NCBI RefSeq assembly: GCF_000317895.1
Contig: NC_019567.1
Span: forward strand, 1-64,000
DNA from: Bdellovibrio bacteriovorus str. Tiberius
GTDB lineage: Bacteria > Bdellovibrionota > Bdellovibrionia > Bdellovibrionales > Bdellovibrionaceae
Direction: 5' to 3'
DNA length: 64,000 bases
Under the pieces are notes generated by a model that was not told the DNA's origin, did no database searches, and saw nothing but the letters and a program-made list of their open reading frames with translations. Positions 1 through 1,648 of this stretch are shown piece after piece (within the stretch, counting starts at the first letter, position 1; every line of letters begins with the position of its first letter). Made by a program: the position numbers and the translations under genes.

Positions 1-1416
1 GTGGAATTAAACTCGTCTTTTTGGACACTTATCAAAACAAAGATGAAAAGCCGGAACGACAACAATAAGTTGTTGGATACTTGGCTTGATCCTATTGAGT
101 ACGTGAGCACCACGGGCTCGGCGGATCGTCCGCGCCTGGTCCTTGGAGTACCCAACGCCCTTCACCAGTACTTCGTTATCGAGAACCTGCAGGATAAGAT
201 TTATACTGAGATTTCAGATACTTATGGTAAGCCTTTCGAGGTTGAGTTCAGTATTACGGGGAACAAAATAAATTCTCATATTGAGACATCCACAACCCCG
301 GACGAGGTTTTAAGCGGTTCTGAGATCCTCCAGGCTCAATTGGCACGTGCTCAGAATATCCAGCCTACTCAACCAAGGTCCAGTTCGGATACTTTGAACT
401 CTGAACTTACTTTTTCGACCTTTGTCGTGGGGAAAAACTCAGAGTTTGCCCATGCAGCCTGTTTTAACGTCGCCCGAAACCCAGGGGCCGATGATTACAA
501 CCCTCTCTATATATATGGACCGGTCGGAATGGGTAAAACCCATCTTTTGCATGCGGCTGGGAATTATATTCGCGAACAATATCAGCAACTTAGAATTACC
601 TACATCTCGGCAGAACGCTTTATGAATGAATGTATTTCTGCCATCCGTCGCCATGAAATGGATAAGTTCCGCCAGAAGTACCGTGAAAACTCGGACATCC
701 TTTTGGTGGACGACGTTCAGTTCATCGCCCGGGGTGAGGCCGTTCAGGAAGAATTCTTCCACACCGTGAACAGCTTCATCGACAGCCGCAAACAGGTCAT
801 CTTGGCCAGCGATCGTATGCCCAAGGATATCCATGGCCTTGAAGACCGCAGCCGCACCCGTCTGGAGCGTGGCTTAATTGCAGACATCACCATGCCGGAT
901 CTGGAGACCCGTATTGCGATCCTTCGCTACAAAGCTGAAAAATTCAACGTGCGCCTGCCTGAAGACGTCGTGAACTACATAGCCAGAATATCCAAACGTT
1001 CCATCAGAGAGCTTGAAGGCAATCTGAAGAAGGTGAAGATGTTCTCCGAACTTCAGGGTCTGCCGATTGATCATGAACTGGTGAAGCGTATTTTGGCCCA
1101 CCACGAAACTCAAAGCACGATTTCTGTGGAAGAGATTATGAAGCTTGTGGCAGATCATTTTAAAGTGCGTGTTTTGGACCTTAAATCTTCAACCAGAGCC
1201 AAGCCGATTGTCGTTCCACGTCAAATCGCGATGTATCTGATTAAGAAGTTCCTGGATAAATCTTTGGTGGATATCGGCAAGTCTTTCGGAGGCAAAGATC
1301 ACACAACTGTGATGAATGCTCTGGAACGGGTTAAGAATCTACAGGCGGCGGACCAGGATATCGCCAAAGATATCGAAGACTTGGAACAAAGAATCCACAA
1401 TATCACAGGGGTGTGA
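1..1416 (+). CDS. dnaA: Chromosomal replication initiator DnaA
   Basis: DnaA binds 9-mer boxes in oriC, forms an ATP-dependent filament and melts the origin to load DnaB. The 471-residue product has the usual four domains: an N-terminal helicase/regulator-binding domain (about 1-90), a short variable linker, an AAA+ core with Walker A G173-T180 (GPVGMGKT) and Walker B around D237-D238, and a C-terminal helix-turn-helix with the box-recognition signature GGKDHTTVMNA near residue 430. The start codon is GTG, the first base of the window, so its promoter lies outside. The gene is followed directly by oriC and dnaN, the classic arrangement. The length is normal and nothing is missing. Confidence 0.98.
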   Translation: MELNSSFWTLIKTKMKSRNDNNKLLDTWLDPIEYVSTTGSADRPRLVLGVPNALHQYFVIENLQDKIYTEISDTYGKPFEVEFSITGNKINSHIETSTTPDEVLSGSEILQAQLARAQNIQPTQPRSSSDTLNSELTFSTFVVGKNSEFAHAACFNVARNPGADDYNPLYIYGPVGMGKTHLLHAAGNYIREQYQQLRITYISAERFMNECISAIRRHEMDKFRQKYRENSDILLVDDVQFIARGEAVQEEFFHTVNSFIDSRKQVILASDRMPKDIHGLEDRSRTRLERGLIADITMPDLETRIAILRYKAEKFNVRLPEDVVNYIARISKRSIRELEGNLKKVKMFSELQGLPIDHELVKRILAHHETQSTISVEEIMKLVADHFKVRVLDLKSSTRAKPIVVPRQIAMYLIKKFLDKSLVDIGKSFGGKDHTTVMNALERVKNLQAADQDIAKDIEDLEQRIHNITGV

Positions 1417-1517: not shown

Positions 1518-1526
1518 TTATCCACA
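1518..1526 (+). promoter_or_regulatory. Perfect consensus DnaA box
   Basis: TTATCCACA is an exact match to the high-affinity DnaA 9-mer. It lies 51 bases before the box that borders the CTA triplets, within the dnaA-dnaN gap. Confidence 0.85.
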
Positions 1527-1568
1527 AATGTTTTTTAGTGTTTACATGGACTTAGGGGATTTGTTAGG

Positions 1569-1595
1569 TTTTCCACGCCCCTACTACTACTACTA
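1569..1595 (+). promoter_or_regulatory. DnaA box plus DnaA-trio (basal unwinding element)
   Basis: TTTTCCACG (1569-1577) is followed by a GC-rich CCC spacer and then CTA repeated five times (1581-1595). Read 3' to 5' on the other strand this is GAT repeated five times, the DnaA-trio element that guides DnaA from duplex to single strand in Bacillus subtilis. The order box, GC-rich spacer, trios, AT-rich tract is the described basal unwinding system. Its role here is inferred from this match. Confidence 0.8.
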
Positions 1596-1648
1596 GATAT
1601 TTATATATATAGAATTAGATAATAAGAGCGTTCAAAAGAGGGTCTTTC

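Follow-up and report, generated by a model that had tools for sequence, protein, structure and literature searches.

A probable five-trio unwinding module at the Bdellovibrio chromosome origin, and a candidate bending site beside it

Between dnaA and dnaN of Bdellovibrio bacteriovorus Tiberius, a DnaA box is followed by five CTA triplets and an AT-rich tract. This raises the question of whether these elements open the chromosome origin in the manner of the basal unwinding system (BUS) of Bacillus subtilis, and whether the number of triplets has to do with life inside prey. The window analysed here is a stretch of 64,000 nucleotides (contig NC_019567.1, positions 1 to 64,000). We consider, with a probability of around 0.9, that this region is a BUS-type module at which the Bdellovibrio chromosome origin is unwound, a reading supported by an array that is unique and that stands in the correct place and order.

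Anatomy of the origin

The features of the locus, in window coordinates, are the following:

1 to 1416, plus strand: dnaA, open reading frame
1518 to 1526, plus strand: perfect DnaA box TTATCCACA, in the orientation of the DUE-proximal box, which lies 51 bp downstream
1542 to 1554, plus strand: element resembling the IHF consensus, TTACATGGACTTA, at a phylum-wide positional peak; putative function
1560 to 1568, plus strand: TTTGTTAGG, at the position where sister classes have the leading box of a tandem pair of DnaA boxes
1569 to 1577, plus strand: DUE-proximal DnaA box (box 1), TTTTCCACG, in the DnaA box 1 region of Makowski et al. 2016 (PMC5124646)
1578 to 1580, plus strand: GC-rich spacer CCC of 3 bp, by direct reading
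1581 to 1595, minus strand: five DnaA-trios, 3'-GAT-5', that is, (CTA)5 on the plus strand
1596 to 1625, no strand assigned: AT-rich DNA unwinding element (DUE), the region of published P1 cleavage and replication start
1649 to 2755: dnaN

Read directly, the dnaA–dnaN gap consists of TTTTCCACG-CCC-(CTA)5-G-ATATTTATATATATA, with the trios of the minus strand running from the DnaA box toward the AT tract, so that the box, CCC, five CTA triplets and AT tract described by the initial annotation are all found. Its description of the tract as AT-only holds for just 15 nt (1597 to 1611), flanked by a G on either side (1596 and 1612); beyond 1611 the DNA is AT-rich with isolated G (another one at 1618) up to about 1625. 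When up to two mismatches are allowed, (CTA)5 is matched in the window solely by this array, plus its own copy shifted by three bases, with 0.00 matches expected from 100 dinucleotide shuffles of the window. The run occurs once in the whole genome of 3,988,594 bases, where the backward-read control gives none. A comparison with Rfam gives nothing at or above a family's gathering score between positions 1380 and 1700.

BUS-type modules are predicted in most bacteria by Pelliciari et al. in 2021, whose rules, in the portion of the paper available, comprise at least three consecutive trios with a central adenine and allow a single box, box pairs being present in 57% (PMC8287927). Here, the DnaA box TTTTCCACG faces the DUE at 3 bp from the trios, inside the range of 0 to 16 bp, and five consecutive trios carry the central adenine. 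The usual tandem pair of boxes is missing, TTTGTTAGG at the partner position not being a box. Box 1 itself differs from TTATCCACA by two mismatches, a weak match that counts against the trio-module reading. On the protein side, the best PDB match of the DnaA encoded in the window is B. subtilis DnaA (8btg, 310 bits), and inspection of this alignment by residue pairs Asn209 and Ile212 with Asn187 and Ile190 of the B. subtilis protein, the trio-recognition residues of the BUS. According to the available text on the B. subtilis protein, Asn187 contacts the trio base and grips the central A through its amino group, C being an acceptable substitute and G and T poor ones, whereas Ile190 takes part in single-stranded DNA binding (PMC10721633).

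The order and polarity of box, GC-rich spacer, 3'-GAT-5' trios and AT-rich DUE are shared with B. subtilis, and phase and number are conserved in relatives (see below), as expected from the B. subtilis-type arrangement initially proposed. The two systems differ in that, as far as the B. subtilis module is described in the sources available, it pairs box 6 with box 7 and has six trios that vary in sequence, whereas in Bdellovibrio a single box is clear and all five trios are perfect. By analogy, DnaA bound to box 1 (1569 to 1577) would load ATP-DnaA beyond the short CCC spacer on the minus strand, one protomer per 3'-GAT-5' trio, and each protomer would capture the bases of its trio; the stretching of the five trios would then open the adjoining AT tract, allowing helicase loading. 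We infer that the trios themselves are required for opening in Bdellovibrio.

The unwinding site was initially presented as a fresh find in this lineage; it is already published, since Makowski et al. mapped DnaA-dependent unwinding and a trio array here in 2016. In the accessible parts of that study, which deals with the origin (BdoriC) of strains HD100 and Tiberius, the latter in silico, DnaA binding was shown by footprinting (DMS) and immunoprecipitation, P1 nuclease together with primer extension revealed an opening of about 55 bp, the start of replication was placed within the unwinding region by replication initiation point mapping, and Bdellovibrio DnaA alone gave only faint unwinding in vitro (PMC5124646). 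This faint opening counts against the trio-module reading, and the strong melting put forward initially is a conjecture. The locus is the same, with box 1, a short GC-rich region, the trio array and an AT-rich DUE; the array beside box 1 is counted there as four trios, at least in the text available (PMC5124646), versus the five present here. A trio unwinding site at the Bdellovibrio origin is thus known, and ordinary for bacteria.

Conservation of the array across the phylum

Loci were searched through DnaN in 59 genomes of a first set and 153 of a second one, from which 57 loci and 80 further genomes, respectively, were used (137 phylum loci). Two genomes of the first set (G009 and G049) were omitted from the 57 for a partial dnaN match at a contig end, and both show the array. 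The 57 order loci were positioned by the best match to the CTA array itself, which favours the outcome that each of them has an array; the centre-blind finder ignores the triplet centre, yet C and A at the edges of a triplet still raise its score. This finder misplaced L029 and L032, we think because dnaN starts too near the array; their arrays come from the trio-anchored placement and they are absent from the 53-genome counts. The anchors of L026 and L033 were shifted by 3 nt into the DnaA-box register.

The last 170 bp before dnaN, including the five triplets, are identical in a relative with a genome of 3,782,950 bases, which we take to be B. bacteriovorus HD100. Throughout the genus Bdellovibrio, five perfect triplets in phase and the CCC spacer are present in 23 of 23 genomes, the box being TTTTCCACG in 22 and TTTTCCACA in the other one. 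By eye, the five-triplet register is kept in all 57 order loci despite point changes, and it is found in 117 of the 137 phylum loci (57 trio-anchored, 58 centre-blind and 2 hand-set); the 20 loci without an accepted array include one of only 149 bases (L197) and one below threshold (G073). With the centre-blind finder, 27, 16, 8 and 2 of the 53 dereplicated order representatives have 5, 4, 3 and 2 perfect CTA triplets, and the corresponding numbers outside the order are 12, 7, 13 and 7 (n=39). The bases of the array vary and its length of 15 nt is constant. The initial annotation had named a lack of conservation in relatives as a reason to abandon the module; since the triplets are conserved in phase across the genus and in register across the order, this objection falls.

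The spacer measures 3 bp in 40 and 4 bp in 13 of the 53 order representatives, and 4 bp in 30 of the 39 genomes outside the order. A box-like 8-mer at a pitch of -8 or -9 from box 1 is present in 30 of these 39 genomes versus 4 of the 53 order representatives. In the sister classes (outside-order loci L194-L237), two tandem DnaA boxes stand at a pitch of 8-9 bp, the first of which looks decayed in Bdellovibrionales, and TTTGTTAGG (1560 to 1568) is probably the decayed remnant of that first box. This apparent loss of the tandem partner of box 1 counts against the trio-module reading.

One family (f15), presumably Halobacteriovorax-type, shows no recognisable trio array in any of its 14 sampled genomes, one of which (G138) is represented by a short piece only and another of which (G063) we take to be H. 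marinus. Its loci (L241-L247, L250-L252 and L254-L257) have DnaA boxes and an AT tract, with the CTA array absent. Trios are thus not indispensable in the phylum, given that this family has box and AT tract without the array, and its origins may open by a different route. As a separate observation, a contig labelled as a Streptomyces griseus metagenome-assembled genome (L091) carries a Bdellovibrionales-like origin and is probably mis-binned.

A candidate bending site upstream of box 1

The element TTACATGGACTTA (1542 to 1554) matches six of the nine letters of the IHF consensus, given as WATCAANNNNTTR in the available text of PMC10380432, and retains the core CA....TT; two other positions of the window also reach six of nine. 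Measured from box 1, the best agreement with the consensus falls at -27 in two sets of genomes, with a mean match of 0.74 against a background of 0.36 in the 53 order representatives and of 0.70 against 0.35 in the 39 genomes from outside the order. When order representatives outside the genus are aligned on the trios, a T at -29 is kept in 49 of 50. None of 1000 circular shifts attains the peak in either set, a test inflated by kinship within the sets, and the reverse-complement and CtrA patterns, which also peak nearby with lower scores, beat the same null. From these alignments, the agreement of two disjoint sets on one offset is a stronger argument than the shift null. The best far box is placed at -51 in 41 of the 53 order representatives and mostly at -75, -64 or -63 outside the order, so that the order, but not the phylum, is characterised by the 51-bp spacing.

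Candidate proteins for such a site are available. The Tiberius genome encodes four proteins of the HU/IHF family, one of them a clear IHF-alpha; another is matched best by IHF-beta, scoring 97.6 versus a curated cut-off of 115. Among 116 phylum genomes, 113 have an IHF-alpha above the curated cut-off, versus 2 of 14 control genomes.

The arrangement resembles the left DOR of Escherichia coli (R5M - IBS1 - R1 - DUE), with which it shares the order of far box, IHF-like site and DUE-proximal box. In E. coli (our locus L262) the IHF site and R5M stand at -31 and -55 from R1, the 24 bp from site to far box being equal to the Bdellovibrio value, whereas the spacing between boxes is 55 bp in E. coli and 51 bp in Bdellovibrio. 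E. coli, however, has no such trio array after R1, and its IHF consensus has the opposite orientation to that of the putative Bdellovibrio site. By this analogy, with the boxes at 1518 and 1569 in the roles of R5M and R1, IHF or HU would bend the intervening DNA at 1542 to 1554 in the way IHF does in E. coli, and the bend would help upstream DnaA to reach the opening DNA. We place the chances of such an assisting bend somewhat below even; against it stand the match of six letters in nine, the lower CtrA and reverse-complement peaks nearby and the IHF-beta score under the cut-off.

Nearly an even chance is given to the alternative that 1542 to 1554 is instead a CtrA-like site (TTAA-N7-TTAA) or part of a DnaA binding platform. 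At -28 the CtrA pattern, too, reaches a high score, 0.62 within the order and 0.59 outside, and by eye some Acidobacteria and one Spirochaete have a TTAAG motif by their tandem boxes. However, the IHF pattern is higher in both sets, with a common offset, IHF-alpha is near-universal in the phylum, and the distance to the far box is that of E. coli.

Number and centres of the trios

Two further alternatives concern the triplets themselves. A scan across phyla, with one genome per species, bears on both; it sought TCCAC-N(1-6)-(CTA)5, a pattern that requires at least five triplets, so that the frequency of shorter arrays cannot be derived from it. At least 117 stretches match; among the matches listed, the spacing is 5 in 96, 4 in 9, 6 in 4 and other values in 8, the 3-bp spacer of Bdellovibrio corresponding to a rarer form. 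The 105 listed matches with spacing 4 or 5 have a perfect run of five in 64 cases, six in 40 and seven in 1, which does not bear out the initial view of five as a high number. Runs of five or six are common, among the matches listed, in Clostridia, Acidobacteria, Streptococcus and others.

The triplets could be incidental, with AT-richness alone unwinding the DNA and the CTA run being a chance microsatellite: slippage can create triplet repeats, and the origins of family f15 consist of box and AT tract with no CTA array. We regard this as very improbable, given that number and phase show no drift, with exactly five triplets in all 23 genus members, that substituted arrays retain their 15 nt, and that arrays following a DnaA box turn up in many phyla, with a spacing of 5 after TCCAC in 96 of the 117 matches listed. 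Fainter still is the case for five perfect trios as an adaptation to repeated replication inside prey, which was part of the initial proposal and which the uniformity of the genus at five would favour, but which is opposed by the abundance of five or six perfect trios in unrelated phyla among the matches listed, by the five triplets (one of them TTA) of G025, which we take to be the epibiotic B. exovorus, and by family f15, where the array is missing in 14 of 14 genomes, including the one resembling H. marinus. No link of trio number with life inside prey emerges from these genomes, and the adaptive reading is disfavoured.

On a midpoint-rooted tree of 78 of the 117 phylum arrays, those with a usable DnaA C-terminus, changes at the centre on the trio strand comprise 13 from A to C, 7 from A to T and none from A to G, two further ones being reversals from C to A; at the third position there are 10 transitions and 7 changes by one transversion. 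Centre-blind pattern searches in 368 phylum genomes gave matches in 56 and 45, some of them repeats in coding sequences, and the backward-read control also matched; in the arrays judged by eye to be origins, CCA triplets are absent, and CGA and CAA types are present. The avoidance of G and preference for C partly fit the base-capture model. An amino-group rule as sole cause was rejected, as the seven changes to T oppose the poor tolerance of T in B. subtilis. The lack of changes to G could be partly an effect of local composition, against which argues the near-equal count of plus-strand G and C in the AT tract near the array (9 versus 7 from +16 to +28, counted by hand). With natural C-centred trios, evolution itself provides a test of the base-capture model of 2023, in which A and C are tolerated and G is not.

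Two side observations concern these arrays. Upstream of dnaN, several loci (L202, L203, L205, L225, L230 and L233-L236) carry TGA, CGA or similar triplets, that is, C at some trio centres; in one of them (L235, genome G073 of family f17), the series TGA TGA TGA CGA TGA apparently places C at all five. On the far side of the DUE, plus-strand TAG, AAG or TAA triplets occur as possible mirror-image trios at 1612 to 1626 of the window and in L154, L089, L125 and L100. Against dinucleotide shuffles, with relatives counted as independent, such triplets right of the DUE give z 3.6 in the order set (12 of 46 high, 5.3 expected) and z 1.7 in the cross-phylum set (18 of 95 high, 5.0 expected), the wrong-polarity controls not being raised. 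Mirror-image trios are not claimed, the score of the window itself being low (2) and no inverted DnaA box standing after the triplets here.

The C-leaning deviant trios and the IHF-like site at a fixed offset both look unreported. No report of this site was found among the papers listed on Bdellovibrio or Bdellovibrionota origins or on DnaA-trios with IHF, and in the available text of Makowski et al. IHF was found only in the title of one reference (PMC5124646). We tentatively propose, at odds short of even, that Bdellovibrionota origins outside family f15 are hybrids, combining an E. coli-like bend module, made up of far DnaA box, IHF site and DUE-proximal box at nearly the E. coli spacing, with exactly five B. 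subtilis-like trios whose deviants favour C. The literature, in the passages available, contrasts IHF-dependent with IHF-independent orisomes (PMC8235120), and a 2023 review, in its accessible part, has no regulator of initiation identified in Bdellovibrio (PMC11318664). If the proposal is true, the contrast between IHF-dependent origins and IHF-independent trio origins would be only apparent, and initiation of replication in Bdellovibrio would have a first candidate for its regulator, the IHF step; an IHF-like site throughout the phylum would join two origin mechanisms that are usually seen as alternatives.
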